DNA of 36,748 nt from Bacteroidales bacterium (GTDB taxonomy: Bacteria > Bacteroidota > Bacteroidia > Bacteroidales > F082): positions 1 to 36,748 of the forward strand of contig JAKSMW010000019.1 in NCBI GenBank assembly GCA_024400395.1. Reading direction: 5' to 3'. Below the pieces are notes generated by a model. The model had not been told where the DNA came from, made no database searches, and saw nothing but the letters and a program-made list of their open reading frames with translations. Shown here piece by piece: positions 20,682-36,748 of the stretch (position 1 is its first letter; each line of letters opens with the position of its first letter). A program made the position numbers and the translations under genes.

Positions 20682-23588
20682 TTATCTTACTATTATCTTC
20701 TGCGTCTTCACTTCATTTCCCGTCAATCTCACGATGTATGCGCCGGTGGTGAGCTTGCTGACATCGACTTTCTGCCCGTGGATTTCTTCGCTGATGACGA
20801 CTCTTCCGAGTACGTCGAACACCTGGAGCGTGCCTTCGCCGTCGATGACCAGCTCGTTGCCGTACTGATACACGAACTGCCCGTTATCGTCGTCGCCGTT
20901 GCTGACACCGAGCCTCACCGTGAAACGGTCATCTCTGTCGGCAGGCGAGCCTATGAACGAATAGCTGCTTTCGAGAAGCATGTCGGTCTCTTCGCCTGTC
21001 ATGTTGTCGATGAGAACCAGATAGTTAAGGTTGTCGGTGGCCTTGACGCTGATGTTGTATTTGTCTGTCGTCATGGCCTTGAAGTTGAGCGGCATCTCTG
21101 AACGTCCCGTTGTACTTACAGAGGCGACGGCTAATTCTTCGTTATCCTGATAGAAACAGATTTCGGAGGTGTTGTCAAGCAGCCTGAACTTCGGCAGCGA
21201 TTCTCCGTTTGTATTCAGGATGGCGCGGTCGATGACGTTGCCGTTGGTAAAGAGTTCCACGCGGATGTCACGCAAGGCGTTCTTCTCGCCGCGGGTCACG
21301 TTGGCGGCGGCGTTTGTTGGGGTGAAGGTGACGGTGGCATCGCTGTTGGCGGCCACGGCGAAGACACCCGTGCAAGGTGCCAGCACCGGATTGGCGACGA
21401 CTTCAACGGCAGTGCCGTTTCCGTTCATCCTGTAGAAGTAATTGGTGCTCCGCAGGTTGCTGCCCGAGATGGTGGCGTTGCAAGGATAAGGGTTGCCCAC
21501 AAGGTTGAAGCCGGCGAAACGGGCGGCGCCGTCGTATGCCAATATCTTGGCATCGGTGGCGGCAAGCGCACCCCTGAAAATGAGTGTCGTGTTATTCTTG
21601 TTGGCATAAAGATAGCCGCTTTGGTTTTCGATGCCGAATGTAGCTGCCCTGTAGTTGCGCCATTCAGCATTTTCGCTTTGGTCGAAGCGGTAGAGGTCGT
21701 AGTTTTCGGCGGGATAGGTTATCATCCCTGAAGGAAGCGTTGCCGTTGCCACCGGCGACGAAACCAGATACCAGTTGCCATCGCCCGTGCCGTAGCCCGC
21801 AATAGCTTTCATTATGTTGTAATTACTGCAATTCACGCTTCCGTTGTTTATCAGTTGCGCACCGTCTTCAAGGATGATGCCGTCTGCCGTCAGAGTTTTG
21901 TCTTCGGCAATGGTGAACGTCTTGCCTGCGGCAACGGTTACTGTTCCAACTTCGGCATTAACATCTATTTGGCAGTTGGCGTTGATAAACACATTTGGGC
22001 AGTGCTGGGCAGGCACTTCGTTTTCATCCCAGTTGCTTGCAACACTCCAGGAGTTGCTGCCTATGCCATTGAAGTTGTAGGTTCCGCCATCGTATTCAAT
22101 GAAAGTGTAGCCATGTCCAATCCATGCGTTTTTGTATGATTCCGTTGTGTTTTTTGGAATGTAAACATTTTCCGAGTCATCTGGAATATAAGAACTTATG
22201 CTTGGTGCGATTTCGGCTTTGGAGATGATGTTGGTGAAATTGCAATTATTAAAAGCTCTGTATCCAATACTTGTCACGGCGTTGCCGATGGTGAGTGAGC
22301 CGGTGAAACCTTTACAGTATTCGAAAGCCCATTCTCCGATGTTTGTCACGGAATTCGGAATGGTGAGCGAGCCGGTTAAGCCTTCACAGTAGTAAAAGGC
22401 ACAGTCACCGATTGCTGTCACGGTGTAGCTTATGTCATTGTAGGTGACGGTTTCGGGCAGTTCGATTTGGCCTGTGGGTTTGGTGAAACCATCCCATCCA
22501 TTAGCGTTGTCGCCATTCGGTGCCACGACGCTCACCCAATGCTGTTCTGCATTGATGATTCTGTAGTAGAGTGTCTGGCCTGTGGCGCAAATGGCGGAGA
22601 AGTCGTATTGCCTGTAGAAAACGGCCACAAGGTTGTGGTCTCTGTCCAAGGTCAAGGTGTAAGGGTTGGCTGTTGATACCAGCTCACTGTTTTCGATCCA
22701 ATTGGAGAACCAATAGTCATCAGTGGGCGTGGCGGAAACGGTGACGATTGCACCTATAGGTGCCGATTCCACGGTTACGCCGCCGCAGGTAGCCTCAACT
22801 GTGCCGGCTTCTTGCGGGTCGGCCGAAACTGCAATGCTGCACTTCGGCTTGTCTGTGCATTTGAAGAAGCGCAGGTTGCCTTGGCTTGTCCCCGTATGTG
22901 TCGTAATGATGTTGCCGTTGTGGCAGACGGTGTAGCCAGATGAGCCAGCCGAAGAGATGTTGCCGTCCGTTATGGACAAAGCAAAAGGATCTGTCGAGTC
23001 AAATGGGCTGAATGTTGAGAGAGACACTCCCTGCGTGGTGATGGACAAATCTCCGTTATCGCAATATGCATAAACAAGATTGTAACTTTCAAAATCAGCG
23101 AATCTGTATTCGACAGGATTTGCAGGATATAATGACAGCTTCATTTCTCCGGCTTCCATTCCCGAAGAGTGCAGGTAGTAATTGTTGCCATCCTGATAGC
23201 CGAGCACATAAATGTCATTAGAGCTGATGTGCGAAGGCAAGGACTCGATAGGCTCGTAAATGTATTTCTTTTCCCAAAAGTTGGCCACAAGGTTGCGGTC
23301 GCTTTCCAAGGTGAAGGTGTATGGGTTGTCGGTTGAGACCACCTCGCCGTTTTCCGTCCAGCATGTGAACATGCAGTCTATGGCAAGCGGTGTGGCGCTA
23401 ACGGTGACTTGTCCGTTGTTCTGGCAGGTGGCGGTTTGGTCTATGCTTGCCGAGCCAAAATCAGGGTTGGCTGATGTCACCGTAAGTTCGAATTGAACAA
23501 AATCCTCCCATATAATGAGAAATTGGCTCCACCCCCTCGCGTTTTTATAATCACTGCCACTGCCGCAAGGCACAACGGGTTCATTCAA
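20682..23588 (-). CDS. BspA/InlB-repeat surface protein with T9SS type A sorting domain, main 3' part (frameshifted from 23585-24043)
   Basis: About 968 residues continue the gene that begins at 24043. The apparent TTG start is only the point where the frame opens after a T8 run. Order of parts: end of a BspA leucine-rich unit (VVPCGSGSDYKNARGWSQF), an InlB-type B repeat, a beta region, a second InlB-type repeat (DDYWFSNWIENSELVSTANP), BspA leucine-rich repeats (LTGSLTIPNSVTNIGEWAF), a beta-helix-like stretch (FTIAEDKTLTADGIILEDGA), a domain with GFNLVGNPYPCNATISG, and a T9SS type A tail ending TQKIIVR. It is a secreted or surface-bound adhesin-like protein. The C-terminal 75 residues are almost identical to the protein at 30484-31226. 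Confidence 0.85.
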   Translation of the reverse strand: MNEPVVPCGSGSDYKNARGWSQFLIIWEDFVQFELTVTSANPDFGSASIDQTATCQNNGQVTVSATPLAIDCMFTCWTENGEVVSTDNPYTFTLESDRNLVANFWEKKYIYEPIESLPSHISSNDIYVLGYQDGNNYYLHSSGMEAGEMKLSLYPANPVEYRFADFESYNLVYAYCDNGDLSITTQGVSLSTFSPFDSTDPFALSITDGNISSAGSSGYTVCHNGNIITTHTGTSQGNLRFFKCTDKPKCSIAVSADPQEAGTVEATCGGVTVESAPIGAIVTVSATPTDDYWFSNWIENSELVSTANPYTLTLDRDHNLVAVFYRQYDFSAICATGQTLYYRIINAEQHWVSVVAPNGDNANGWDGFTKPTGQIELPETVTYNDISYTVTAIGDCAFYYCEGLTGSLTIPNSVTNIGEWAFEYCKGFTGSLTIGNAVTSIGYRAFNNCNFTNIISKAEIAPSISSYIPDDSENVYIPKNTTESYKNAWIGHGYTFIEYDGGTYNFNGIGSNSWSVASNWDENEVPAQHCPNVFINANCQIDVNAEVGTVTVAAGKTFTIAEDKTLTADGIILEDGAQLINNGSVNCSNYNIMKAIAGYGTGDGNWYLVSSPVATATLPSGMITYPAENYDLYRFDQSENAEWRNYRAATFGIENQSGYLYANKNNTTLIFRGALAATDAKILAYDGAARFAGFNLVGNPYPCNATISGSNLRSTNYFYRMNGNGTAVEVVANPVLAPCTGVFAVAANSDATVTFTPTNAAANVTRGEKNALRDIRVELFTNGNVIDRAILNTNGESLPKFRLLDNTSEICFYQDNEELAVASVSTTGRSEMPLNFKAMTTDKYNISVKATDNLNYLVLIDNMTGEETDMLLESSYSFIGSPADRDDRFTVRLGVSNGDDDNGQFVYQYGNELVIDGEGTLQVFDVLGRVVISEEIHGQKVDVSKLTTGAYIVRLTGNEVKTQKIIVR

Positions 23589-24770: not shown

Positions 24771-24854
24771 TCAGTCATTTTCACCGAAAAAAGTGATGCG
24801 TATCACCATCATTCAGTCATTATGACCGAAAAAAGTGATGCGTATCACCATTTT
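24771..24854. repeat. 42-bp tandem duplication with palindrome GTGATGCGTATCAC
   Basis: Two copies (24771-24812, 24813-24854), each with TCAGTCATT, CACCG or GACCG, AAAAAA and the palindrome. On the minus strand each copy also encodes a 12-residue minicistron (MVIRITFFGHND and MVIRITFFGEND), probably by chance. Confidence 0.85.
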
Positions 24855-24898
24855 TGCAGGTTGCCAAAATAGTTTTTCATATAGGCGGCCCGCGGAAT

Positions 24899-24979
24899 CT
24901 TTAGTCTTTAGTCGTTAGTCGTTAGTCGTTAGCCCGTTGACCCTAAAAACTAAAGACTAACGACTAAAAACTAAAAACT
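24899..24979. repeat. TTAGTC/GACTAA hairpin at the 3' end of the beta-helix protein gene
   Basis: It abuts the stop codon of the minus-strand gene at 24980. Long imperfect stem with the conserved loop CGTTGACCCT; a likely terminator or 3' stabiliser. A half-hairpin GGCGGCCCGCGGAATC precedes it at about 24884. Confidence 0.75.
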
Positions 24980-27058
24980 TTATTCCATTTTCCTGAACTC
25001 CACTTTTTCGGGGCTGTAGAGTCTGATGGTGGTTGTGCCTTTCGTGACATCCACGGCGGGGCAGTCGTCGCATGGAACTCCCATCTCGCCGAGGGCGGAA
25101 TTATAAATCGCCTTGGCGGAAGCGATTGCAGCGAGGGCTTGTGCTTTGATGATTTCGATTTCATGCGGGTTGGCCGCCGCATTGATGGCATCAATCGCAT
25201 AAGTGGCGATGGCTATAATATCGGCATTGGTAACACCTATTATGGCAGCATTGATGGCGGCAATGGCTTCATTTTTTACATTGGTCATTTCATCTTTCAC
25301 TATTACATATCGTAATGCTGCGATATAAGATGCAATATCATTGTCGGTGTGTAATATTTCGTTTGTCGGAGGGGTAGTGTTGTCTGCATAAACGGTGAAC
25401 GCTGTAGCCACCTTGATGTTTGAGCCGGAACCTTCTTCTCCGCCACCGATACCAGCAGCATTTTGTCCACCATTTGCCGTAACCGTACCGCCATTGATGG
25501 TGATGTTTGAACCGGAACCTTCTTCACCACCACCGATGCCAGCAGCAGTGTCTCCACCTGTTGCCGTAATCGTGCCGCCATTGATGGTGATATTAGAACC
25601 AGAACCATTATATCCACCACCGATGCCGGCACCATGGTGACCACCATTTGCCGTAACCGTACCGCCATTGATGGTGATATTAGAGCCGCTACCATGATAT
25701 CCGCCACCGATGCTGGCACCGTCATATTCTCCGTTTGCGATAACTATACCGCCGTTGATGGTGATGTTAGAACCGTTACCATCTTCTCCACCACCGATGC
25801 CTGCACCAAATTTTCCACCGTTTGCAATGAGTTGGCCGGACTGGGCGGTCTGACCGTAGATGGTGAGAGACTTGCCGTCGCCTGATACGGTGATGCCGGC
25901 ATGTTTCTTTTCTCCCGTTGCCGTGAGTTTCGCACCGTCGGCAAGGATGAGGTGGACTTCGCCGTTGCAGACCGCACCTTTTGCGAGGGTGATGTCGGCA
26001 CCCTGCACTACATACCAGCCGGCAGACCAGGTGACCTTTTCGGAGGCATTCCTGATTATGGAGACATTGTCGTGCGTCTGCGGTTCACCATTGGCGTCGA
26101 TATACGCCACATTGTCGATTGACGACAGGGACTGTAGCGAATTTGAATATGTCAACACATCGCCGTCGTAACCGCGATACACGGTGCCGTGGCTGTTGTT
26201 CAGCACGGGGAAATTGTCAGTGTCCAATGTCTGATACCATTTCTGTGTGCCGTCGGTCACACTATAGTTGAGCATGTAGCACACTTCACCGGAAGCGAAG
26301 GCTGAGGCGGACTTTACCTCCACATTGGTAGCAGTTGGATTGCCATTCGGATCTGTCCATCCTATCGCATTCGTTGTTCCTGTTGAATTTATGCTTTTGG
26401 CATAGCAGTTCTCAATCGTTCCAGTCAAGGCACCGCAAACGAGGCCGCGGCTTCCGTTGCCGCTGACATTGCAGATTGAATAGCTGTCTTTTAGGACGGC
26501 ATTTGTAAAGACCGAGCCTGTCAGTCCGCCACCGTCACCAGAAGTCACATAGACTGCCACCTCACTCCAGCAGTTCTCTATCAGGCCATTTGCGAAGTCG
26601 CCGCAGATGCCGCCCACGTGGTCTTGGCCATAGAAGTAGCTGTCGCTGACGCCGAGGTCGTGGATATGCGCTCCGGATGCCGTCTTGCCGAAGAGACCAA
26701 CATTCTTCATCACTCCGTTATTAAAGTAAAGTCCGCTGATGGTGTGGCCGTTGCCGTTGAACTCGCCTGAATGGTCTTTGCCGTTCCCATTAAATCCGCC
26801 TATCGGGGTCCAAATAATTTGAGGAGTGCCGTTGAGGGTTCCGTCATCATTCAGCACGCCGCTGTTCACTACAATGTCCGCCATAAGCATGGCATTGGTC
26901 GATGCGTTTCCTGAGTTCACATGGTCGGCAAACCAGACGAGGTCTTCTTTCGTCTGCAATTGGTAGAAACCGTTCACTTGTTGAGGGTCCGCCCATGCAG
27001 TCATGCAGCACAGCAGGAGTGCTGCCGAGAATAATAGTTTTGTGATGTTCTTATTCAT
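24980..27058 (-). CDS. Exported GLUG/beta-helix repeat protein with conserved CxDCP...PEKVEF tail
   Basis: I use the ATG giving MNKNITKLLFSAALLLCCMT, a signal peptide ending AWA (692 residues); an ATG three codons upstream is also possible. A GLUG-like region follows (DHVGGICGDF, DGGGLTGSVF, GSRGLVCGALTGTIENCYA). Then come about five 27-residue Gly-rich units of the form SNITINGGTVTANGG..GAGIGGG, a predicted right-handed beta helix. An Ala/Ile-rich helical segment (DAINAAANPHEIEIIKAQAL) leads to the tail LGEMGVPCDDCPAVDVTKG..TIRLYSPEKVEF. It lacks a T9SS type A or B ending. Three other loci share the tail. It is a secreted surface protein of unknown function, and follows a DUF4143 ATPase gene on the same strand. 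Confidence 0.85.
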   Translation of the reverse strand: MNKNITKLLFSAALLLCCMTAWADPQQVNGFYQLQTKEDLVWFADHVNSGNASTNAMLMADIVVNSGVLNDDGTLNGTPQIIWTPIGGFNGNGKDHSGEFNGNGHTISGLYFNNGVMKNVGLFGKTASGAHIHDLGVSDSYFYGQDHVGGICGDFANGLIENCWSEVAVYVTSGDGGGLTGSVFTNAVLKDSYSICNVSGNGSRGLVCGALTGTIENCYAKSINSTGTTNAIGWTDPNGNPTATNVEVKSASAFASGEVCYMLNYSVTDGTQKWYQTLDTDNFPVLNNSHGTVYRGYDGDVLTYSNSLQSLSSIDNVAYIDANGEPQTHDNVSIIRNASEKVTWSAGWYVVQGADITLAKGAVCNGEVHLILADGAKLTATGEKKHAGITVSGDGKSLTIYGQTAQSGQLIANGGKFGAGIGGGEDGNGSNITINGGIVIANGEYDGASIGGGYHGSGSNITINGGTVTANGGHHGAGIGGGYNGSGSNITINGGTITATGGDTAAGIGGGEEGSGSNITINGGTVTANGGQNAAGIGGGEEGSGSNIKVATAFTVYADNTTPPTNEILHTDNDIASYIAALRYVIVKDEMTNVKNEAIAAINAAIIGVTNADIIAIATYAIDAINAAANPHEIEIIKAQALAAIASAKAIYNSALGEMGVPCDDCPAVDVTKGTTTIRLYSPEKVEFRKME
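25420..25800 (-). repeat. 81-bp in-frame tandem repeats coding ITINGG units
   Basis: About five degenerate 81-bp units encode SNITINGG..A.GG...GAGIGGG. Such repeats can change copy number by recombination. Confidence 0.8.
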
Positions 27059-27108
27059 TATCGTCATGTGTTTAATTTTCTTCAAAATTAAGTATGAATT
27101 TCGGGCGG

Positions 27109-27116
27109 CAAAGATA
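27109..27116 (-). promoter_or_regulatory. -7 box for the GLUG/beta-helix gene
   Basis: TATCTTTG followed by CCGCCC on the minus strand, 50 nt before the chosen ATG. Confidence 0.7.
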
Positions 27117-27131
27117 CGACAAAAATCTTTT

Positions 27132-27224
27132 TGATTCAAAGATTCAAAAATTTAAAGATTTAAACCTCTGAAACCTTGAAACCTTGAAACCTTGAAACCC
27201 TTGAATCTTTGAATCCTTAAATCT
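27132..27224. repeat. TTTCAA/TTGAAA simple repeat array
   Basis: Runs of GATTCAAAG, TTTAAAGAT and AACCTTGAA units fill the gap between an ATPase stop and the next promoter; no gene is present. Confidence 0.8.
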
Positions 27225-28499
27225 CTATGGTTTCAGGCAGCCGATGGGAATCACATATACGCCGTCTTTTCTGCGGTAGGCGAATTGTCCGACAGCGGTC
27301 ACGACCATAAGGAATGCCGGTTTCTTCATCTTGTCGGTATCAATTTTCTCTGCAAGTGTGTGCAATGTGGCTGCTGCTTTGTCGATATTATCCGGCCCGC
27401 CAAGTTTGATTTCTATCAATCCATAAGACCCGTTGCGTCTATGCAGGACAGCATCACATTCCAATCCGTTAACATCGCGGAAATGATAGATATTGCCGTC
27501 TAAAGCATCTGCATAAACACGCAAATCTCGGACAGCCATGTTTTCAAAAAGGAGTCCAAATGTCTGCAAATTGTTCACTATGTCTTTGGGGCTTGTTCCT
27601 AATGCTGCCGCCGCAATACTTGGATCGCTGAAATAGCGGACGTCCGAGGACTGAATTGCCGTCTTACTGCGCAGATTAGGATTCCATGCGGGCGAATCTT
27701 CCAACACAAAGAGTTTCTTCAATGCATCTACATAGTCGGAAATCGTCTCGTATGTAATGGATGCATTATCATTCTCTTTGATATCAGCGGCCATTTTATT
27801 GAAACTGACTGTCGCTGCTACATTCCGGGCGTATGAGCGAAGCAGCAATCGAGTCCGTTCACTATTGCGGCGTGTCTTGTCCACACGCTGAATATCCATT
27901 TTGTAAATGGTTTCATAGTAATCACGTGCCTGTTCCAACGCCACTCTTCCCGTCATGAAGGTGGCTTGAGGCCAACCTCCGCGACATAACAGGTAAGCTA
28001 TCTGATCCAAAGTCAGGGGATTATCCTGTGGCTCAATGTCTTTCCCTTCAAACAAGTCATCAAGAGACACGGAACCCGTTGACTCTCCCGATTCCCACAG
28101 ACTCATCGTTCGCATATTCAGTCTTCCGATGCGTCCGTTTCCGCTATGCCGTAGCTTATCTTGCTCTATCGGTGTGCTGCTGCCCGTGAGGATGAATTGT
28201 GCGACATCGCCTCGGTCATCCACTTCCGAGCGAACCATGTCCCACAATTCCGGAATGCTTTGCCATTCGTCTATCAGTTTTGGTGTTTCGCCTGCCAATA
28301 ACGACATCGGCTTGATTTGATATATTTCGAGAGCATCTCGCAGAATAGCGGTATTGCCTAAATCAAGCACACTTTTAGCCATTTGTTTGGCTGTCGTAGT
28401 CTTGCCACACCACTTGGGGCCTTCCAACAAAACGGCACCTTTCCCTTGTAGCTTTTGGTCAAGTAGAATATCCACTATTCGCTGTTTATATGTCCTCAT
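27225..28499 (-). CDS. AAA ATPase with DUF4143 domain (copy 1, intact)
   Basis: The start is the ATG giving MRTYKQRIVDILLDQKL (424 residues), just after the -7 box; upstream codons overlap the promoter. Walker A is GPKWCGKTTT (residues of about 27-36), Walker B PKLIDEWQ, and an arginine-finger-like LTGSSTP follows. The C-terminal DUF4143 has FRDVNGLECDAVLHRR and YGLIEIKLGG, giving a D..E-x-K PD-(D/E)XK-like core. Family members are cytosolic STAND-like ATPases of unknown substrate, often in accessory DNA. It is a clear paralogue of the gene at 35124-36404; both end VYVxPIGCLKP. A tail-family protein gene lies downstream. Confidence 0.9.
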   Translation of the reverse strand: MRTYKQRIVDILLDQKLQGKGAVLLEGPKWCGKTTTAKQMAKSVLDLGNTAILRDALEIYQIKPMSLLAGETPKLIDEWQSIPELWDMVRSEVDDRGDVAQFILTGSSTPIEQDKLRHSGNGRIGRLNMRTMSLWESGESTGSVSLDDLFEGKDIEPQDNPLTLDQIAYLLCRGGWPQATFMTGRVALEQARDYYETIYKMDIQRVDKTRRNSERTRLLLRSYARNVAATVSFNKMAADIKENDNASITYETISDYVDALKKLFVLEDSPAWNPNLRSKTAIQSSDVRYFSDPSIAAAALGTSPKDIVNNLQTFGLLFENMAVRDLRVYADALDGNIYHFRDVNGLECDAVLHRRNGSYGLIEIKLGGPDNIDKAAATLHTLAEKIDTDKMKKPAFLMVVTAVGQFAYRRKDGVYVIPIGCLKP

Positions 28500-28523
28500 A
28501 TCGGTATATTTTGAATTTGGCTG

Positions 28524-28531
28524 CAAAGGTA
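28524..28531 (-). promoter_or_regulatory. -7 box for DUF4143 ATPase copy 1
   Basis: TACCTTTG followed by CAGCC, 25 nt before the ATG. The palindromic array at 28555-28643 covers the -33 region and beyond. Confidence 0.75.
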
Positions 28532-28554
28532 CGAAAAATTTGATACATACAAAA

Positions 28555-28643
28555 TTATTCCGCAACTTTTGTAAAAGTTATTCCGCAACTTTTGTAAAAG
28601 TTATTCCGCAACTTTTGTAAAAGTTATTCCGCAACTTTAGTAA
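28555..28643. repeat. 23-bp palindromic iterons upstream of ATPase copy 1
   Basis: Three perfect copies and one partial copy of TTATTCCGCAACTTTTGTAA plus AAG at a strict 23-bp spacing. Each contains the inverted repeat AACTTTT-GT-AAAAGTT. The array begins 24 bp upstream of the -7 box. Confidence 0.92.
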
Positions 28644-28739
28644 AGATTTAAAGATTCAAAAGTTTCAAGGGTTTCAAAGTTTCAGGAGTTTCAAAGTTTC
28701 AGGAGTTTCAAAGTTTCAGGAGTTTCAAAGATTTAAAGA
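28644..28739. repeat. TTTCA-family simple repeat array
   Basis: Units such as GTTTCAGGAGTTTCAAA repeat about five times, flanked by GATTTAAAGATT. Confidence 0.85.
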
Positions 28740-28776
28740 TTCCGCGGGTCGCTGGTGATTTCGGCGGCTCGCGGAA
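28740..28776. terminator. GC-rich hairpin (TTCCGCG…CGCGGAA), copy 1
   Basis: A 7-bp perfect stem extendable with wobbles, loop containing GGTGATTTCGGCGG. Nearly identical over about 70 bp to 29545-29616, where it follows a tail-family gene. It is probably the terminator that accompanied the remnant at 28809-28867. Confidence 0.55.
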
Positions 28777-28808
28777 CCTTGATGATTTTACGGGGTTATC
28801 GACGCTGT

Positions 28809-28867
28809 TTATTCCGTTTTCCTGAACTCCATCATTGGCATCAATATGCACCACATTGTCGATTGAC
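28809..28867 (-). pseudogene. Deletion remnant of a GLUG/tail-family gene
   Basis: The last codons read MEFRKTE-stop, as in the 24980 gene (VEFRKME-stop). Directly upstream, a 34-bp stretch (28834-28867) matches 26090-26123 of that gene with four differences (coding SIDNVxxIDAN). Everything between, about 1.1 kb in the intact paralogue, is missing and the frame is broken at the junction. Confidence 0.7.
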
Positions 28868-28886
28868 TCAACTCTAAAGGGCACAA

Positions 28887-29333
28887 TTATTTGGCAAATT
28901 GCTCAAATCGAAAAACATAGTTGCTATTTTCATAAGACAAGGACAAATTACCGGTTGAGATAATATCCATCCCCATTACCATGTGCACCGGCAATGATGG
29001 GAGAACATCTACTTGAACACACCACTTGTCATTTTCCGACATCGCAACAATACATTCCGATTCCCATCCTTCTGCAACACCGGCACTACCTTCTACATGG
29101 ATTTCATCACCACGGTCGAGTTGCAGTACATCACTGACTTCTTGGCTAATGGCAGAGTGTTGAGACCCCGTATCCAAAATAGCATCAATTATACATTGCC
29201 TGCCAGTCAACGGATTCGCCAACAGACACGGAACGTATATCACGTCGCATTGGGCGGGTAAAACTAACTCTAACATATTCGTGTTCTTTTCCTGTAATAA
29301 TACTTTGTGCTTGTCGCCTTGGTCTATCACCAA
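28887..29333 (-). CDS. Retropepsin-like aspartic protease domain protein
   Basis: About 148 residues with the single-lobe aspartyl protease motif ILDTGSQHSAIS, then VHMVMGMDIISTGNLSLSY, the family's second conserved stretch. Such proteins act as dimers; substrates in bacteria are mostly unknown. The start is uncertain. The frame opens at a TTG or GTG (29333 or 29330), and the first ATG is at 29276. The promoter at 29418 and an ATG at 29406 (MKRLSQSICSKSENM) are in another frame that runs alongside. A 1-nt frameshift near 29335 would join that N-terminus to the protease. No signal peptide is seen. Confidence 0.75.
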   Translation of the reverse strand: MVIDQGDKHKVLLQEKNTNMLELVLPAQCDVIYVPCLLANPLTGRQCIIDAILDTGSQHSAISQEVSDVLQLDRGDEIHVEGSAGVAEGWESECIVAMSENDKWCVQVDVLPSLPVHMVMGMDIISTGNLSLSYENSNYVFRFEQFAK

Positions 29334-29417
29334 CCGGCAAACTGAATCCCATAAAATGTGTCATATTTTCAGATTTAGAGCAGATACTTTGTGATAGTCT
29401 TTTCATTTTCAGGCTGC

Positions 29418-29425
29418 AAAGATAC
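29418..29425 (-). promoter_or_regulatory. -7 box for the retropepsin-like gene
   Basis: TATCTTTG followed by CAGCC on the minus strand. Confidence 0.7.
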
Positions 29426-29437
29426 AACAATTTTTGG

Positions 29438-29544
29438 ATTCAAAGATTTAAAAATTTAAAGATTCAGGGGTTTCAGGGGTTTCAGAGGTTTCATAGTTTC
29501 AGGGGTTTCAAGGTTTCAAAGTTTCAGAGGTTTAAAGATTAAGA
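29438..29544. repeat. TTTCA-family simple repeat array
   Basis: GTTTCAGGG and GTTTCAAAG units between AAAGATTTAAA blocks. No coding sequence. Confidence 0.85.
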
Positions 29545-29581
29545 TTCCGCGGGTTGCCGGTGATTTCGGCGGCTCGCGGAA
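29545..29581. terminator. GC-rich hairpin (TTCCGCG…CGCGGAA), copy 2
   Basis: Same stem as 28740-28776, lying about 30 nt past the stop of the tail-family gene at 29615. Confidence 0.6.
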
Positions 29582-29614
29582 CCTTGATGTTTTTGCGGGC
29601 TTATCGTCGCTGTT

Positions 29615-29827
29615 TTACTGTTTCTTGAATTCCACTTTTTCAGGATTATACAGTCTGACGGTCTTGTCACCTTTCTTGATTTCCACCGTCGGACAGTCGG
29701 TGCAAGGTTCAGCCATTTCGCCGAGAAACTCCTTGACCGGGTCTGCGTATTCGCAATTGAAATATCCGCTATGCCAAAGGGTTGTACTATTGACCAGTCT
29801 GTCGTTTGCCAACCAGGTGGAAGGTAT
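29615..29827 (-). pseudogene. Tail part of a BspA/CxDCP-tail protein, behind a premature stop
   Basis: The frame continues that of 29828-30373 after an in-frame TAA. It encodes IPSTWLANDRLVNS, GYFNCEYADPVKEF and the conserved tail LGEMAEPCTDCPTVEIKKG..TVRLYNPEKVEF. The paralogue at 34678 reads LKIPSTW where this copy reads L-stop-IPSTW, so one AAA-to-TAA change cut the gene. The tail would only be made by read-through or internal initiation. Confidence 0.75.
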
Positions 29828-30389
29828 TTAAAGGGCGACCGGAGATTCGGCTGTGCCGATATCGCTTAAAGAAGCATTATCGAGCACCACAACCCCTGAA
29901 AATGTTACAGATGTTACATTGGTGCAAGTTGCGAATGCGTTATCTTTAATACTCGTCACACCTTTACCAAATGTGATTGTATTAAGGTTTGTGCAGTTTT
30001 GGAATGCATTATTTTCAATACTTCCTGCTTTTATAGTCAGATTGGTCAGTGATGTCCAACCTTTGAATGCTTCATATCCAATGTCGGTCACCGTGTTTGG
30101 CCATGCTACAGCAGTCAGGGTTGTGCTATTGGTAAATGCCCAATCACCAATGGTCGTTATATCGCCATCAAAAGAGATAACACCATAATCCTGCTCTGTA
30201 TAGTACGTACTATTGGCATCATTGTAAGTAGCGCCAAAAACGTTTTGATGATATGGCGTTATTTTTTGATGGTCAGATGACCTGTACATAATCTGGTTGT
30301 TGGCAGGCGTCGGCAGTGCCGGCGGTTCTTGTGCTTGCGCCAAGCACGCAGCAGTATATGACTGCAAGAACAAATAGAATTTTCTTCAT
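29828..30389 (-). pseudogene. BspA-type leucine-rich repeat protein with signal-peptide frameshift
   Basis: The ATG at 30389 gives a signal peptide start (MKKILFVLAVIYCCVLGA), but the mature protein is in another frame. That frame begins around AQAQEPPALPTPANNQIMY and runs through BspA repeats (ITTIGDWAFTNSTTLTAVAW, SIENNAFQNCTNLNTITFG) to GTAESPVAL-stop at 29828. So there is a frameshift between about 30340 and 30375 and a nonsense codon at the end. The intact ancestor would span 29615-30389: signal peptide, leucine-rich repeats and CxDCP tail. I see no promoter, so it may follow the gene at 30484. Confidence 0.75.
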
Positions 30390-30400
30390 TGATATTTTAA

Positions 30401-30447
30401 GATTCAAAGATTCAAGGGTTTCAAAGTTTCAGATGTTTCAAGTTTCG
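30401..30447. repeat. TTTCA-family simple repeat
   Basis: GATTCAAAG, GTTTCAAAG and GTTTCAGAT units between two minus-strand genes. Confidence 0.75.
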
Positions 30448-30483
30448 AAAAATGCCAAAATCGTGGTGTTTACTCTCAACCTT

Positions 30484-31226
30484 TTATCTAACAATAATCT
30501 TCTGCGTCTTGACTTCATTTCCAGTCATCCTCACGATGTATGCGCCGGTGGTGAGCTTGCTGACATCGACGCTCTGTCCGTGGATTTCTTCGCTGATGAC
30601 GACTCTTCCGAGGACGTCGAACACCTGGAGCGTGCCTTTGCCGTCGATGACCAGCTCTTTGCCGTACTGATACACGAACTGCCCGTTATCGTCGTTGCCG
30701 TTGCTGACACCGAGCCTCACCGTGAAACGGCTCTCACTGTCGGCGGGCGAGTTGAAGCCGTGCGCCGCGCCGGTTGTGAGGCTGCGTTCAATGTCTCCGG
30801 CATTGATTTTGCCATTGAATTCGAGTGTCGTGCTGTTTTCTATATGGTATATGTAGCCGACGCCTTTGTCGATTGTGGTGAAGTCGGGGTTGGCGATGAC
30901 TTGAGTGAAAAAGGTGCTTGCAAAAGCATTTTCTCCAATGCTTGTCACGGAATTCGGTATGGTGAGCGAGCCGGTCAAGCCTGTACAGTTATAAAGAGCA
31001 TGATCCTTAATGCTTGTCACGGAATAGGTCGTGCCTTCGCAGGTCACAGTGGCGGGAATGACAAAATCATGGGCGGTGAGGCCTGCGGTATGTCCCGTCA
31101 ACTCAACGGTGGGCGGGCTGGGTCTGTAACGCGGTAGTTCAGGCCATTAGATGTGAATTCTTCTTGCGCCTTCAGCGCGAAGCAGCCACACAGCATGGCT
31201 GCAAGGATAAAGAATATTTTTTTCAT
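30484..31226 (-). pseudogene. Second BspA/T9SS surface protein, frameshifted and internally deleted
   Basis: The ATG gives MKKIFFILAAMLCGCFALKA, almost the same signal peptide as the gene at 24043. The frame runs SNGLNYRVTDPARPPLS and stops at 31098. One base earlier the correct frame continues VELTGHTAGLTAHDFVIPAT, BspA repeats (LTGSLTIPNSVTSIGENAF) and a T9SS type A tail ending TQKIIVR. The site is a C-rich run (31109-31122). In the middle, AAHGFN jumps directly to SPADSESRF; the longer paralogue has about 185 residues between these points, so an in-frame deletion is inferred. The C-terminal 75 residues nearly match the 20682 gene. Confidence 0.78.
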
Positions 31227-31260
31227 TGCTGTCAGTTTTAATTCATTTTGAAATCGGCTG

Positions 31261-31268
31261 CAAAGGTA
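31261..31268 (-). promoter_or_regulatory. -7 box of the second BspA gene
   Basis: TACCTTTG followed by CAGCCGA, 35 nt before the ATG. Confidence 0.7.
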
Positions 31269-31280
31269 CGGAATTTTATA

Positions 31281-31325
31281 ACACGAGTTGCACAAGTTTT
31301 TAACACGAGTTGCACGAGTTTTTAA
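31281..31325 (-). repeat. ACTCGTG-type repeat (two units)
   Basis: Same as 24099-24143, upstream of the BspA promoter, within the duplicated segment. Confidence 0.85.
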
Positions 31326-31340
31326 ATACTGAATACCTAA

Positions 31341-31577
31341 TCACCTGTCCCCCTGATTACCTGATTTCCGTCCCTGCCATGTGCCGCGTTCCGCCATGCG
31401 TCTTTCTATCATCGCGAGCACGTGGTCGTAACGCAGGCTCTCCCACGGCTTCGAGACGAGGAAACGCGGCGGCACCTCGCCGGCGAAGCGTTCTATCACG
31501 ATGTCGATGCTGATCTTCTGCACACGCCCGCCGAAAACAAGTTTGAAATAGTCGCTGTAACTGTTAAAACGGCGCAT
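31341..31577 (-). pseudogene. TIGR01212-type radical SAM gene reduced to its two ends
   Basis: The 78-codon frame starts MRRFNSYSDYFKLVFGGRVQ, then KISID, the family's N-terminus. It passes directly into IVIERFAGEVPPRFLVSKPW, MIERRMAERGTWQGRK, the family's C-terminus. The whole radical SAM core (the CxxxCxxC loop and about 230 residues) is missing, but the frame is kept. The 3' half is about 95% identical to 24158-24318. It cannot be an active radical SAM enzyme. It starts 24 nt after the PreA-like stop. Confidence 0.82.
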
Positions 31578-31601
31578 CTTTATTATTAAGAAGATAGAAG
31601 T

Positions 31602-33065
31602 TTACATTCGATTGCTTGTCAGAATGGCTCCTGTCGGGCATACCAAGCGGCACAGATGACAGCCTGCGCAGTTGGCCCCGATGAGTCTCGGGGTGCGTTT
31701 CTCGTCAAAGACTATCGCCTGATGACCGGCGTCGGAACAAGCTAAATAACAGCGTCCGCATCCGACGCAGACTTCGCGGTCCCATCGTGGAAAAACCTTC
31801 GTGCTTCTGTCAAGGTCGCCCGGTTTGCCGAAACTCGGCAACTCACTCCCAACCAACTCGGAAATGTCTTTTACGCCTTTCTGACTCATATAAGTCTTCA
31901 TTCCGAGAACCAGGTCGTCGATGATGCGGTAACCGTACTGCATCACGGATGTGCAGACCTGAACGTTTCTGCAGCCAAGTTGAATGAAGTCCAATGCGTC
32001 ACGCCACGTCTCAATTCCGCCGATTCCGCTTATCTGCAAATCCTTGTTTGTCTTTCTTATTTCTTGGTCGGTCGCGATGTCGAGGATGAAGCGCAGGGCT
32101 ATCGGTTTGACGGCTTTTCCGGAATAACCGCTAATCGTCCGTTTCCCGCTGACGAGTGCCGATTCTGACAAAGTGACTGATTTTATGGTGTTTATGGCTG
32201 CAATGCCGTCGGCGCCGCCCGAATATGAGGCTAATGCCGGCTTGCAGATGTCGGTGATATTAGGCGTCATCTTCGCGATGACAGGCCTGCTGACGTTTCG
32301 TTTTACGGCTTCGGTGAATTTCTTGACGAGTCGCACGTTTTGCCCGACATCGGAACCCATTCCAGATTTCTTCATTTGCGGACAAGAGAAGTTCAGTTCG
32401 ATGATGTCGGCACCACTTTGCTCGGCTCTCTTTGCAAGTGTAATCCATTCATTATCAGTCTGTCCCATAATGCTCGCCACGATTATCTTTGAAGGATAAT
32501 TCTGTTTGAGTCGTCTCAAGATGTCGAAATTCTCATCGGCTGAGAGTTCGCTTATTTGTTCCATATTGCGGAATCCGAAGAAAGGTTGTCCGGAGTGGTT
32601 TTTAACGGCGTCAAAACGCGGTGAGACCTCATGAATTTCATCAAGTCCGATGGTTTTAAAGACAACGCCGCCCCAGCCTTGCTCGAATGCTCGGGCTACC
32701 ATTTCGTAGTTTGTGCATATCGCTGACGAGGCGAGGAAGAACGGGTTTTCGCAACGGACACCGCAAAAGTCAACCGATAAATCGATGTCGTCAATGTCAG
32801 GCAGATTTGAATATTTTGATATTACGGTTTTTGCTATCTCATTGATTCGTATTGGTTTGTCGGAATGGATGCAGTGTTTTTCGCAAGGCGCGTCGCAGTT
32901 GACGCAGGCATCCGAAAGCCATTTAGAGGCATTCGTTTTGTTGTCGAAACGGATGGCGCGGATGGCGCGGGCGGGTTGGAGATGATGTTTGCAAAACACA
33001 TCGCATGGTGCGTTGTGGCAAAGCAGGCAGCGAGATGACTCTGCACAAATGTCGAACATATTCAT
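31602..33065 (-). CDS. PreA-like dihydropyrimidine dehydrogenase/dihydroorotate dehydrogenase-type Fe-S flavoprotein
   Basis: The product is 487 residues. The N-terminal 80 residues carry Cys clusters (SRCLLCHNAPC, then CVNCDAPCEKHC) like the N-terminal Fe-S domain of eukaryotic DPD and PreT. Next is an FMN barrel of the DHOD/PreA type (NPFFLASSAICTN, IELNFSCPQMKKSGMG, PVIAKMTPNI, SGIGGIETWRDALDFIQLG). The C-terminus is a 2x[4Fe-4S] ferredoxin domain (CVGCGRCYLACSD, CAGCHLCRLVCPTGAI). It reduces pyrimidine bases or a related substrate. The FAD/NADPH half (PreT) is absent here, so electrons must come from elsewhere. MNM at the start leaves two possible ATGs. Confidence 0.88.
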   Translation of the reverse strand: MNMFDICAESSRCLLCHNAPCDVFCKHHLQPARAIRAIRFDNKTNASKWLSDACVNCDAPCEKHCIHSDKPIRINEIAKTVISKYSNLPDIDDIDLSVDFCGVRCENPFFLASSAICTNYEMVARAFEQGWGGVVFKTIGLDEIHEVSPRFDAVKNHSGQPFFGFRNMEQISELSADENFDILRRLKQNYPSKIIVASIMGQTDNEWITLAKRAEQSGADIIELNFSCPQMKKSGMGSDVGQNVRLVKKFTEAVKRNVSRPVIAKMTPNITDICKPALASYSGGADGIAAINTIKSVTLSESALVSGKRTISGYSGKAVKPIALRFILDIATDQEIRKTNKDLQISGIGGIETWRDALDFIQLGCRNVQVCTSVMQYGYRIIDDLVLGMKTYMSQKGVKDISELVGSELPSFGKPGDLDRSTKVFPRWDREVCVGCGRCYLACSDAGHQAIVFDEKRTPRLIGANCAGCHLCRLVCPTGAILTSNRM

Positions 33066-33093
33066 AGGTATTAATCAGATATTAAATCGCCGG

Positions 33094-33101
33094 CAAAATT
33101 A
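33094..33101 (-). promoter_or_regulatory. -7 box for the PreA-like gene
   Basis: TAATTTTG followed by CCGGCG on the minus strand, 29 nt before the ATG. Confidence 0.6.
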
Positions 33102-33156
33102 GAAAAAATGATGATAGCTGAAACCTTGTCTTTGATTTTTTTTTAGTCTTTAGTCT

Positions 33157-33222
33157 TTACGAAAAGAACCACGCGCCGATGCCGAGCGTCAGGGCGATGA
33201 TTGATAAAAGGAGTTTGTGCAT
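33157..33222 (-). CDS. Possible 21-residue hydrophobic peptide
   Basis: ATG to TAA encodes MHKLLLSIIALTLGIGAWFF plus Ser, a single predicted membrane helix with one basic residue at the N-terminus. It lies 24 nt after the stop of the DUF4143 frame on the same strand. No strong ribosome binding site is visible. It could be a small membrane protein or chance. Confidence 0.35.
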   Translation of the reverse strand: MHKLLLSIIALTLGIGAWFFS

Positions 33223-33246
33223 ATTTGTTATAATTCTTTAAGATAT

Positions 33247-33915
33247 TCATCCAATAAATTTTGCCGGATTCATAAGGAAATCCACTAAGTTGACGATAAA
33301 CAAGCCGTCATCATTCATATAGGTCGGCTGTAGTCCATAAACGACAACGAGTTTACGGAAACCATCGTTCAATTTGCGCAACGAAGCAAATTCCTGATTA
33401 CGTTTTTCATCGGTATCCATTGCAAACGCTGATTGAACATATACTCGATTATACCCTCGGTTGCACACGAAATCCACCTCTAATATGCTGCGCTGGCGTT
33501 TGCCGTCAGCATTCTTATGCTCGCTATATACTTGTCCGACATCAACAGTAAACCCCGCCTCTCGGAGTTCATTGTACAGCAGGTTTTCCATTATGTGCGG
33601 CAATTCGGTTTGACGGAATCCTACACGAACGTTCCGTAATCCCAAGTCTTCAAAGTAGTATTTATAAGGCGAATCAATATATTTACGCCCTTTAATATTA
33701 TAGCGGATAGATCTTTCAATCATGAATGCATCTTCCATATACTCCAAATACTGGCGAATAGTATCTGCGGAGATCTTACTTTGCTTGACAGTCTTGAAGG
33801 TGTTGGCTATTTTGGGGGGATTGGTAAGAGACCCAATACAGGATGATATTATGGTTATAAGTTCCAACAAGTCGCTATCGTTTTGAATATTATACCTATC
33901 TTTGATGTCACGCAA
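33247..33915 (-). CDS. DUF4143 half of AAA ATPase copy 2 (frameshifted)
   Basis: The frame encodes the DUF4143 domain: RDIKDRYNIQNDSDLLELIT, then a winged-helix region (SLTNPPKIANTFKTV, ISADTIRQYLEYMEDAFMIE) and the nuclease-like end with SILEVDFVCNRG. The usual E-x-K is replaced by VQSA. It begins inside the preceding ATPase frame (33908-34498). In intact relatives the two halves are one protein of about 410-420 residues with F..TYLRDI at the join. Inserting one AC unit at 33919-33926 restores exactly THTYLRDI. See the partner entry for the ATPase half. Confidence 0.8.
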   Translation of the reverse strand: MRDIKDRYNIQNDSDLLELITIISSCIGSLTNPPKIANTFKTVKQSKISADTIRQYLEYMEDAFMIERSIRYNIKGRKYIDSPYKYYFEDLGLRNVRVGFRQTELPHIMENLLYNELREAGFTVDVGQVYSEHKNADGKRQRSILEVDFVCNRGYNRVYVQSAFAMDTDEKRNQEFASLRKLNDGFRKLVVVYGLQPTYMNDDGLFIVNLVDFLMNPAKFIG

Positions 33916-34498
33916 GTAGGTGTGTGAATTGTTGTTTCAGGTATGCGACTTTGCGTGCAGGGTCGTTTTCCAATACCACTTGTGGGAGGCCGCCATACAA
34001 CATATATTCACGCAACATGGCGTCAGAATAAGATTGCCTATGCTCTGCAAACTCGCGGAACGAAAGTGGGTGAATACGGATTTCATCGCCTCGACCACGA
34101 AATTCGGTAATCACATCTTTGCTCAGGAATTTTGCGTTACTTCCCGTAACAAACACATCAACATTATCCTCTTTAAGAAAACTGTTCAGTACATCTTCAA
34201 ACTCACTCACCAACTGTACCTCGTCCAATAATACATAATAATGCTCCTTATCTACAATTCTATCAAATATGTGATTTAGCAGCACGTCCGGATTTCGCAA
34301 TGCCATATTCCGACGGTTTTCCAAATCGACCATAATGATATGGTCTTCCGGAATCCCGTTTCCCACAAGATAGTCATGAAAGATGGTGAACAGCAAATAC
34401 GATTTTCCACATCGGCGCATTCCGGTAATCACCTTAATCATGCGATTTCCGCATGCATTGATTAGTTCTTGAAGGTATTTTTCTCTTTTTATCTGCAT
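33908..34498 (-). CDS. ATPase half of AAA/DUF4143 protein copy 2 (frameshifted)
   Basis: The 196-residue frame starts MQIKREKYLQELINACGNRM. It has Walker A GMRRCGKSYLL (residues of about 25-35), Walker B YYVLLDEVQL, and sensor-like VFVTGSNAKFLS. FRGRGDEIRIHPLSFREFAE and YMLYGGLPQVVL are standard for this family. It ends FTHLLA-stop where relatives continue TYLRDI, because of a 2-nt contraction in an AC repeat. It is more distant from copies 1 and 3 than they are from each other, so it is a separate subfamily. The promoter is 56 nt upstream. Confidence 0.8.
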   Translation of the reverse strand: MQIKREKYLQELINACGNRMIKVITGMRRCGKSYLLFTIFHDYLVGNGIPEDHIIMVDLENRRNMALRNPDVLLNHIFDRIVDKEHYYVLLDEVQLVSEFEDVLNSFLKEDNVDVFVTGSNAKFLSKDVITEFRGRGDEIRIHPLSFREFAEHRQSYSDAMLREYMLYGGLPQVVLENDPARKVAYLKQQFTHLLA

Positions 34499-34553
34499 TG
34501 CAAAAATATATTGTATTCGTTGATTCCGTGTAAATACACGTTTTTAGCGACTG

Positions 34554-34561
34554 CAAAGATA
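34554..34561 (-). promoter_or_regulatory. -7 box for ATPase copy 2
   Basis: TATCTTTG followed by CAGTCG on the minus strand. Confidence 0.65.
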
Positions 34562-34598
34562 CTGCATTTTTTCATATATGCGAGAAAACCGGCAAAAT

Positions 34599-34677
34599 TT
34601 AGTTGTTAGTCGTTAGTCTTTAGTCGTTAGTCCGTTGACTCTCCAAACTAAAAACTAAAAACTAAAGACTAAAAACT
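34599..34677. repeat. TTAGTC/GACTAA hairpin repeat at the 3' end of a tail-family gene
   Basis: Abuts the stop codon at 34678. Same conserved loop (CGTTGACTCT) and arms as 24683-24770 and 24899-24979. Confidence 0.75.
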
Positions 34678-35087
34678 TCACTCCTTCTTGAACTCCACTT
34701 TCTCGGGGTTGTAAAGTTTGACGGTCTTGTCGCCTTTAGTGACTTCTATAGACGGGCAGTCCTCGCAAGGTTCTGCCATCTCGCCGAGAAATTCCTTGAG
34801 AGGATTCACGTATTCGCAGTTGAAATACCCACGATGCCAAGGGGTCGCGCTATTGACCGGCTTGTCGTTTGCCAACCAGGTGGAAGGTATTTTAAGGTTT
34901 GCGGGAGATTCGGCTGTGCCGATAGTGTTTAAAGAAACATCATCAAGTACCACATACCCTTGTCCGGTACACAATCTGGTTGTTTTCGGGTGTCGGCAAG
35001 GGGTCAGGTTCCGTGTTTCCTTGCGCGTGTGCCAGTCCTGCGTTCAGCGTCAGGGCGGCGAATAAAAAAGGGAAATAGTCTTTTCAT
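34678..35087 (-). pseudogene. CxDCP-tail protein with signal-peptide frameshift and deleted repeat domain
   Basis: The ATG at 35087 gives MKRLFPFF; with one T fewer in the T6 run (35064-35069) the frame becomes a good signal peptide, FLFAALTLNAGLAHAQ, followed by NTEPDPLPTPENNQIVYR. Shortly after, near 34956-34966, the sequence jumps to YVVLDDVSLNTIGTAESPAN, LKIPSTWLAND and the tail LGEMAEPCEDCPSIEVTKG..TVKLYNPEKVEF. The paralogue at 29615-30389 has leucine-rich repeats of about 120 residues between these points. This copy therefore lost its repeat domain and its frame. No promoter is seen; it probably follows the ATPase gene that ends 36 nt upstream. Confidence 0.78.
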
Positions 35088-35123
35088 ATTGATAATTACT
35101 TTTGTTTTGACAATAATATTAAT

Positions 35124-36404
35124 TCACGGTTTCAGGCAGCCGATGGGGACGACATACACGTCATCCTGACGGCGATAGGCATACTGACCTACACCCGTTA
35201 AGACCATCATAAACGATGGTGCGTTCATCTTATCCGTGTCAATCTTGGCAGACAGTGTTTTAAGGGTGGTTGCTCCTTTCTCTATGTTATCCGTTCCGCC
35301 CAATTTGATTTCGATAAGTCCGTATGAGCCGTTGCGACGATGGAGGACGGCATCACACTCCAAGCCGTTTTTGTCGCGAAAGTGGAAGACTTCCCCGTCT
35401 AAGGCATCGGCATAAACACGCAAATCGCGAACAGCCAAGGTTTCAAAATAAAAACCGAAGTCTGTCAGATTATTCAACAAATCTTTTGGCCCGATTCCCA
35501 ATGCCGATGTGGCGATGCTGGGATCGACAAAATAGCGTGTGTCACTGGTCCGTATGGCCGTCTTGCTGCGCAGATTGGGATTCCATGCCCGCATGTCCTC
35601 TTCTAAGAATATCTTACTCAGCACCCTTACATAATCCTCCACCGTGTCTGCGCTGATGGTGGCGTTTTCATTGTTGATTATGTCTGCACGAATAGTTGTG
35701 TAAGGGATCTGTTCGCCTTGGTTACGGGCCAGGCTTCGGATGATGCGCGACATCGTATTGGCATCGCGTCTTACATCATCAATTTTGGATATATCCGAAT
35801 TGAGCACTGCTTTCAGGTAGGCATGCGGGACACGAAGTGCGGCACGCTCAGATAATGAAAGTGCTCCGGGCCATCCGCCACGGCAAGTCAGATATGCCAA
35901 TCTGTTTAAATCTATTGTGGCTGCACCATCCGGCATCGCTCCGTTGAATAATGCTTGGAGACTGACATCGCCGGTGCTGTCTCCTGACTCCCAAAGCGAC
36001 ATGGTGCGCATTGTAATCCAGTCGAAACGACCGGCGCCGCTATGAAAAATCTGTTTCTTATCCTTCTCCTTTGGAACGGACGAACCCGTGAAAATAAATT
36101 GTCCTACATGCACTTGGCGATGGTCAATCTCAAAACGTGCGGCATCCCACAATTGCGGAGCCAACTCCCACTCGTCAATTACTCGCGGGGTGTCACCTTC
36201 TAACAAACGCTTTATATTAGTTTGCGCCAGCGAAAGATTTTGTTCTTTTTGCATTGGATCGTCCATATATAAAACACTTCCGGCATGATGGACGGACGTG
36301 GTGGTCTTGCCACACCACTTCGTTCCTTGCACAAGGACGGCACCCAATGCTTCCAAACTTTCAGACAACAACTGGTCTGCAATTCGGACTCTGTATTCTT
36401 CCAT
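35124..36404 (-). CDS. AAA ATPase with DUF4143 domain (copy 3, intact)
   Basis: The 426-residue product starts MEEYRVRIADQLLSESLEAL. Walker A is GTKWCGKTTT, Walker B PRVIDEWEL, and a sensor stretch FTGSSVPKEKDK follows. The nuclease-like end has FRDKNGLECDAVLHRR and GLIEIKLGG, with the D and E-x-K residues kept. It is close to copy 1 (27225-28499), most strikingly over the last 120 residues, including the shared end PIGCLKP. A TACTTTTG box lies 25 nt upstream of the ATG, and a 23-bp repeat array further upstream. The next gene downstream is a decayed CxDCP-tail gene, repeating the arrangement of copy 1. Confidence 0.9.
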   Translation of the reverse strand: MEEYRVRIADQLLSESLEALGAVLVQGTKWCGKTTTSVHHAGSVLYMDDPMQKEQNLSLAQTNIKRLLEGDTPRVIDEWELAPQLWDAARFEIDHRQVHVGQFIFTGSSVPKEKDKKQIFHSGAGRFDWITMRTMSLWESGDSTGDVSLQALFNGAMPDGAATIDLNRLAYLTCRGGWPGALSLSERAALRVPHAYLKAVLNSDISKIDDVRRDANTMSRIIRSLARNQGEQIPYTTIRADIINNENATISADTVEDYVRVLSKIFLEEDMRAWNPNLRSKTAIRTSDTRYFVDPSIATSALGIGPKDLLNNLTDFGFYFETLAVRDLRVYADALDGEVFHFRDKNGLECDAVLHRRNGSYGLIEIKLGGTDNIEKGATTLKTLSAKIDTDKMNAPSFMMVLTGVGQYAYRRQDDVYVVPIGCLKP

Positions 36405-36429
36405 TTGTGTTAAATTCTCAATTCGGGCG

Positions 36430-36437
36430 CAAAAGTA
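36430..36437 (-). promoter_or_regulatory. -7 box for ATPase copy 3
   Basis: TACTTTTG followed by CGCCCG on the minus strand. Confidence 0.65.
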
Positions 36438-36486
36438 TTAAAAATAAACGATATACACAAATAAATCTGCGATTTTTCTTTATTTC

Positions 36487-36555
36487 GTTCACCCAGTTGG
36501 CCAAATTTTGTTCACCCGGTTGGCCAAATTTCATTCACCCAGTTGGCGGTGACTT
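36487..36555. repeat. 23-bp tandem repeat with TTGGCCAA core upstream of ATPase copy 3
   Basis: Three units (TTCACCCAGTTGGCCAAATT type) at 36487, 36510 and 36533, the third diverging after TTGGCG. The palindromic TTGGCCAA occurs in the first two. Confidence 0.88.
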
Positions 36556-36570
36556 ACATGTTTGGCGACA

Positions 36571-36748
36571 TTACTCTTTCTTAAACTCCACTTTCTCCGG
36601 GTTGTAAAGTTTGATGGTCTTGTCGCCTTTGGTCACCTCGATAGATGGGCAGTCGGTGCAGGGTTCAGCCATCTCGCCGAGAAACTCCTTGACGGGATCT
36701 GTGTATTCGCAGTTGAAATATCCGCCATGCCAAGGGGTGGCGCTATCC
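36571..36748 (-). CDS. C-terminal part of another CxDCP-tail protein
   Basis: The frame is open to the window edge. It encodes ATPWHGGYFNCEYTDPVKEF followed by LGEMAEPCTDCPSIEVTKG..TIKLYNPEKVEF and a TAA. It is about 90% similar to the tails at 29615 and 34678. The body of the protein lies outside the window; by analogy it should have a signal peptide and a repeat domain. Confidence 0.8.
   Translation of the reverse strand, partial: DSATPWHGGYFNCEYTDPVKEFLGEMAEPCTDCPSIEVTKGDKTIKLYNPEKVEFKKE

Follow-up and report, generated by a model that had tools for sequence, protein, structure and literature searches.

A shared tail at four loci of one contig

The window, by which we mean the whole stretch of 36,748 nucleotides analysed here, belongs to a Bacteroidales genome of 2.1 Mb that is assembled into 61 contigs and is 83% complete. 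Four loci on its minus strand share a C-terminal tail of 36 residues, each ending at its own stop codon (Table 1), as the original prediction made from this DNA had proposed. With the tail ending at 29615 as query, the three other window copies were recovered at E values of 1.3e-18, 8.3e-18 and 7.4e-13, together with copies on contigs C55 (9.9e-17) and C46 (6.1e-13) of the same genome, and given these values the likeness is not due to chance. In total this search gave eight matches in the genome, namely six full tails (four in the window, one each on C55 and C46), in which 20 of the 36 columns are invariant, and two weak ones (E about 0.01) that turned out to be related endings lacking the CxDC cysteine pair.

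Table 1. Features of the tail-bearing loci in the window, with two contrasting genes.
Feature	Position	Strand	Basis
Intact 692-aa gene (counted from ATG) with signal peptide, Beta_helix_3 repeats, Ala-rich segment and tail	24980..27058	-	
Tail copy 1, CxDC subtype	24983..25093	-	search and alignment
Ala-rich segment, probably helical, with weak likeness to DUF1542 / GA-like; precedes the tail in many relatives	25094..25273	-	
Remnant: final seven codons (28832-28812) and stop (28809-28811)	28809..28832	-	
Scrap of body domain abutting the remnant; 87% like 26086-26123 of the 24980 gene (repeat family D17)	28830..28867	-	
LRR_5 gene, broken by an in-frame TAA (29828-29830), with tail copy 2	29615..30373	-	
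Tail copy 2	29618..29725	-	
Truncated relative of the 29615 gene, with tail copy 3	34678..34974	-	
Tail copy 3	34681..34788	-	
Gene fragment (3′ end) with tail copy 4, cut off by the contig end	36571..36748	-	
Tail copy 4	36574..36681	-	
Contrast: LRR_5 protein with type A T9SS domain (PF18962)	20682..23588	-	Pfam
Contrast: LRR_5 frame with type A T9SS domain (PF18962)	30484..31101	-	Pfam

Only the gene ending at 24980 is intact among the four. The frame ending at 34678 encodes 98 aa, and its signal-peptide-like start sits in another frame. The remnant predicted at 28809 does derive from the tail, but it amounts to the last seven codons next to a scrap of body domain. The beta helix predicted for the 24980 gene was recovered by Pfam as Beta_helix_3, whereas the predicted GLUG repeats gave no match.

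Subtypes of the tail

Among 37 tails picked with the CxDC profile, the first cysteine is kept in all 37 and the second in 36; 36 of these tails also retain the lysine at tail position 35. The pair had been taken as a constant feature of the tail, and this did not hold: related tails in the same and in other genomes do without it, including all four copies in genome G825, and the CxDC motif is the mark of one subtype only and is dispensable. We also found a second class of ending composed of two hairpins, the second of which aligns with tail columns 10-36 at a probability of 94%. Judged from its sequence, the tail itself resembles a single beta-hairpin whose end is rich in lysine.

The idea that such a hairpin is universal in Bacteroidota was rejected. 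In the fetched loci, a pattern adjusted to the tail matched 48 times, 47 of them within 32 residues of a stop codon (one of these, L094, looks unrelated) and one internal, and the two samples drawn at the level of class and order returned the window's genome only. The first, searched with the CxDC profile (A1), matched one of 395 genomes of the class, and the second, searched with the double-hairpin profile (A2), one of 393 genomes of the order. Both profiles have a narrow reach, and even sampling overlooks rare genera: a longer profile did match Bacteroidaceae.

Distribution among Bacteroidales

With the CxDC profile, 13 of 173 genomes of the window's family gave matches. Eight were strong and all lie in the window's genus; the five weak ones, in genus g12, were dropped as chance matches, and the two that were fetched are internal, in one protein type, 347-348 residues from the end. 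The longer profile (A3), which covers the Ala-rich segment plus the tail, matched eight of 99 genomes of the window's genus (relatives of Ca. Limimorpha) and eight of 399 sampled genomes of the Ca. Equicola family (NCBI: Bacteroidaceae); two of the latter eight were already in the scan of named genomes, and one of these two, G562, holds just 27 residues of it, at the start of a contig. The scan of named genomes returned 22 loci, of which 14 are Horse_feces records, five come from Ca. Limimorpha caballi, one from Ca. Equicola faecalis and two from ‘Bacteroidia bacterium S33M_St_15’.

The distribution over two families suggests horizontal spread. The tail was absent from the phages, plasmids and viral contigs searched. 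The genomes are mostly draft metagenome-assembled genomes, and absences are therefore soft. The tails from these two gut Bacteroidales families (such as L054 of Ca. Equicola faecalis, L057, L059, G825 and G680) include several from horse faeces. A literature search of titles and abstract openings, with subscription papers mostly outside its scope, found no publication on the tail.

Position in the protein and preceding domains

The position of the tail was scanned in 63,398 stop-to-stop frames from all fetched DNA, a set that is tail-enriched by design. Counting fragments, 80 distinct frames bear the tail core, and in 78 of them it lies 0-9 residues before the stop codon. The original prediction had named an internal copy as evidence against itself; of the two non-terminal copies, one (L061) is the first of the two hairpins in a double ending, whereas the other (L230) is truly internal. 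The protein with the internal copy (G825:C14, overlapping L206) consists of a signal peptide, LRR, a helical segment, the tail core and then about 195 further residues that resemble a FISUMP domain.

Signal peptides were called by a simple home-made rule on frames with a closed 5′ end and a length of 240 residues or more. By this rule 41 of the 43 long tail frames carry one, and the two exceptions start inside or just past a signal-peptide-like stretch. A lipoprotein box was not apparent by eye in the tail proteins.

The preceding domains differ, as had been anticipated, with LRR_5, Beta_helix_3 and List_Bact_rpt among those found by Pfam. An Ala-rich segment precedes many tails, and LRR proteins bear the tail without it. 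A search against solved structures gave only weak matches, the best of which (E 0.015) aligns the Ala-rich part with a helical surface protein from bacteria. The BspA-type LRR_5 proteins of four genomes and the fetched regions carry three kinds of ending: type A (the two window genes at the foot of Table 1; L121, L123, L125 and L126), the double hairpin (L010, L119, L122, L124 and L060) and the tail. A small number of LRR frames lack all three, such as 23585-24112 of the window and L120:2476-3177.

Selection on the tail

For 37 distinct tail DNAs, the mean pS was 0.53 and the mean pN 0.21, and pN was lower than pS in 654 of 666 pairs, which are non-independent and in which three tails with an insertion inflate pN. 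The tail is kept by purifying selection, its amino acids being conserved and its silent sites not. This bears on whether the likeness could be the residue of recent duplication or recombination in a family of surface genes, with no job of its own. Broken and truncated copies exist, repeats surround the copies, and in copy pairs other than those of copy 1 with copies 2 and 4 the DNA likeness takes in the 3′ flank or the body as well, all of which would fit such an origin. However, the silent sites are far diverged under conserved amino acids, divergent homologues occur in another family, and the likeness of copy 1 to copies 2 and 4 begins at the tail and stops within 8 bases of the stop codon. 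We consider a mere residue of duplication very improbable.

The relation of the tail to its genome was compared on two LRR proteins of G045 and G825, which are 52% identical over 492 residues, with tails that are 36% identical. Compared with other tails of its own genome, that of the G825 protein reaches 82% and 87% identity to two of them and 51% to the internal copy; of the two proteins with the closer tails, one has a body weakly LRR-like to the first and the other gives no match. In G825, by these comparisons, the tail goes with the genome and not with the body, and the two can become uncoupled. Among 36 chosen tails from eight genomes, mean identity was 0.62 within genomes vs. 0.49 between them. 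The tails of G000 and G045 are as alike between the two genomes (0.67) as within, and the tails of G680 (0.40) and G587 (0.36), two each, are no more alike than tails across genomes. We rejected ‘tail follows genome’ as a general rule; G825 alone shows the pattern.

A natural exchange of endings

A protein of Ca. Limimorpha caballi (L062:1924-4839, genome G045) and one of Ca. Equicola faecalis (L275:12024-14987, genome G561) are 71% identical over 909 aligned positions, whereas their last 70 and 69 residues are only 10% identical and align no better than shuffled sequences (score 14.0 vs. 11.4, s.d. 5.1). The Limimorpha protein has the double hairpin at its end and the Equicola protein what we call the ‘YNLxG..NGKK’ ending, a label coined here for an ending of Bacteroidaceae secreted proteins that corresponds to no named model; it takes the place of the double hairpin and has no sequence likeness to it. 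By this alignment, the C-terminal module can be replaced as a unit on the same protein. In a second pair (L062 and L255), 45.5% identity over 951 positions is followed by 57 and 47 unaligned residues. The contig that bears both hairpin tails and the swapped ending (G561:C28) might be mis-binned; its GC content of 0.456 is inside the range of other G561 stretches.

Matches to a loose pattern for ‘YNLxG..NGKK’ numbered 33 in G825 (1034 kb), 7 in G680 (392 kb) and 6 in G561 (338 kb); in Limimorpha DNA (427 kb) there were none. These endings may be a C-terminal signal of their own that has no model. The stretches of these three genomes (L217-L316) contain T9SS genes and many ‘YNLxG..NGKK’ endings, with type A domains being rare.

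Both the exchange and the position of the tail bear on the possibility that it is a structural cap or assembly hairpin, which would finish a stalk or pair with a partner, be selected for stability or oligomerisation, and go unread by any export machine. The frequent Ala-rich segment ahead of the tail would suit a cap, as would the internal copy between an Ala-rich-like segment and another domain, and the tail is unlike known export signals. Nevertheless, LRR proteins bear it with no Ala-rich segment, nearly all copies (78 of 80) are terminal, and on a 71% identical protein an unrelated ending replaces the module. We regard a cap as possible, yet unlikely.

Comparison with known C-terminal signals

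In ten full proteins and 32 tail segments, the tail lies outside every Pfam and NCBIfam model, in agreement with the prediction that it is not a named domain. In the same set neither TIGR04183 nor PF18962 matched the tail, while two type A proteins of the window do match PF18962, and the NCBIfam T9SS models, type B and type C included, gave no match. Aligned by hhalign with nine type A domains of the genus, the CxDC profile reached a probability of 0.2%. The distinction from type A that had been drawn by eye is therefore borne out by these models and profiles, and the tail as a known T9SS domain in disguise was rejected. Type A domains were found in none of the 80 tail frames and none of the 11 double-hairpin frames, vs. 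51 type A frames in the same DNA, a lack that is partly automatic because a protein has one C-terminus.

The tail shares with type A domains (TIGR04183 / PF18962) the extreme C-terminal position, the Sec signal peptide, the varied repeat proteins that carry it, a conserved lysine near the end and the genomes in which it occurs. It differs in size: type A domains have about 70-100 residues (size and fold are described in PMC12618676 and PMC10994853), and 36 residues are short for a seven-strand Ig-like fold. T9SS domains of type B and type C likewise have about 100 residues or more. PMC10202324 describes three unrelated types of C-terminal domain read by the T9SS, reports that the last 22 residues of the HBP35 type A domain are enough for export of GFP, and lists the recognition of different signals by the T9SS as an open question; PMC11285876 states that T9SS domains from different species can be incompatible.

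Sorting tails of the LPXTG or PEP-CTERM-like kind have a membrane-spanning stretch followed by a basic end; the tail sequence contains no hydrophobic stretch. The tail also has a likeness to SprF and PorG, envelope proteins of a T9SS organism with two cysteines close to the C-terminus; according to PMC12635249, their twin-cysteine C-tails bond to GldK. Their motif, however, is CxC on outer-membrane proteins, whereas that of the tail is CxxC on exported repeat proteins and is missing in one subtype.

T9SS genes in the hosts

All 11 tail-bearing genomes checked have T9SS genes (G562, G563, G587, G766, G905 and G929 lie outside this count). Within the genus, all 13 genomes tested have a sortase model above cut-off, eight with the tail and five without, and 57-148 type A domains each. 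In Bacteroidaceae, PorP and PorK-N were above the curated cut-offs in G561 and PorZ was above cut-off in G680, and PorU and PorZ were found in G825 by tblastn. Type A domains are rare in the sampled DNA of these three genomes (0 in G561, 1 in G680 and 4 in G825), and two of the four in G825 lie on the PorU and PorZ stretches. The co-occurrence of tail and T9SS was thus seen wherever it was checked, but since the five tail-less genomes of the genus have the T9SS as well, it proves little about the tail. Two adjacent PorU-like sortases lie above cut-off in nine of the 13 genus genomes (e.g., G000:C5:21146-27819) and one in the other four; the pairs occur in tail-bearing and tail-less genomes alike.

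Proposed role of the tail

We describe the tail as a new, short module to which no named-domain model corresponds and which probably has a sorting or attachment role. Because it is terminal like such signals, selected and replaceable as a unit, a module that sets the destination of the protein is the simplest reading. To the fuller proposal, that exported adhesin-like proteins carry it as an exchangeable C-terminal module for sorting or attachment, we give a probability of somewhat under one half (about 0.48). The sorting or attachment role named in the original prediction gains indirect support from purifying selection, the pattern in G825 and the natural swap, and is still one that we infer. 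Under this proposal, an ordinary signal peptide would take the protein through Sec and across the inner membrane; the tail, with one hairpin or with two in the second class, would be recognised by an envelope machine; and that machine would carry the protein across the outer membrane or fix it there.

In these bacteria the T9SS is the machine known to read C-terminal signals on non-lipoprotein surface proteins. By analogy it is possibly the reader of the tail, and the tail proteins would then be located at the surface. They show the general traits of T9SS substrates, namely a Sec signal peptide (by our home-made rule), a terminal tail and a host with the T9SS. Against a sorting role and a T9SS reader stand the one internal copy, the dispensable CxDC motif, the lack of likeness to type A, the unclear bond of tail and genome outside G825 and the presence of the tail in only eight of 99 genus genomes, vs. 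57-148 type A domains in each genome counted.

The tail could instead be a surface anchor only, with export by the T9SS or another route depending on some other feature, and with the hairpin or the cysteine pair binding an envelope component. The adhesin-like bodies and the conserved pair of the CxDC subtype are consistent with this. On the other hand, Pfam and NCBIfam found no other export signal in the ten proteins scanned, one subtype does without the pair, and the idea overlaps with the sorting or attachment module that we prefer; we think a pure anchor improbable. A bolder proposal, by analogy with the SprF and PorG tails, is that the CxDC subtype would be a covalent tether, forming a disulfide with the conserved PorK/GldK cysteine after Sec export and bolting adhesins to the secretion ring or a moving track, and that the subtype devoid of cysteines would be a released or freely anchored form. 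This we offer as a long shot.

Should the tail indeed signal export or attachment, its length would be unusually small for Bacteroidota, and it would define a further class of exported proteins that escapes present T9SS models. Since one protein occurs with two endings in two genera, whether unrelated C-terminal modules do the same job becomes directly testable.

DNA around the tail genes

ATPase genes of the AAA_14/DUF4143 type lie between the tail genes of the window (27225-28565, 33247-34498 and 35124-36404). DUF4143 matches number 34, 39, 37 and 36 in four tail-bearing genomes vs. 4, 0, 6, 6 and 14 in five tail-less ones, and in the fetched regions such an ATPase is the direct neighbour of 18 of 33 tail genes vs. 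8 of 89 other genes (Fisher p 3e-7, on non-independent genes). Short intergenic repeats also flank the tail genes (window positions 28551-28762, 29424-29545, 24677-24979 and 34593-34677), the kinds seen being a 17-base unit, a 23-base unit and GTTAGTC-like runs, and these repeats may aid recombination. Finally, two pairs of 300-base stretches, 20649-20948 with 30451-30750 and 24001-24300 with 31184-31483, are 90% and 94% identical, respectively; they are duplicated gene ends and gene starts, belonging to two type A LRR genes of the window.
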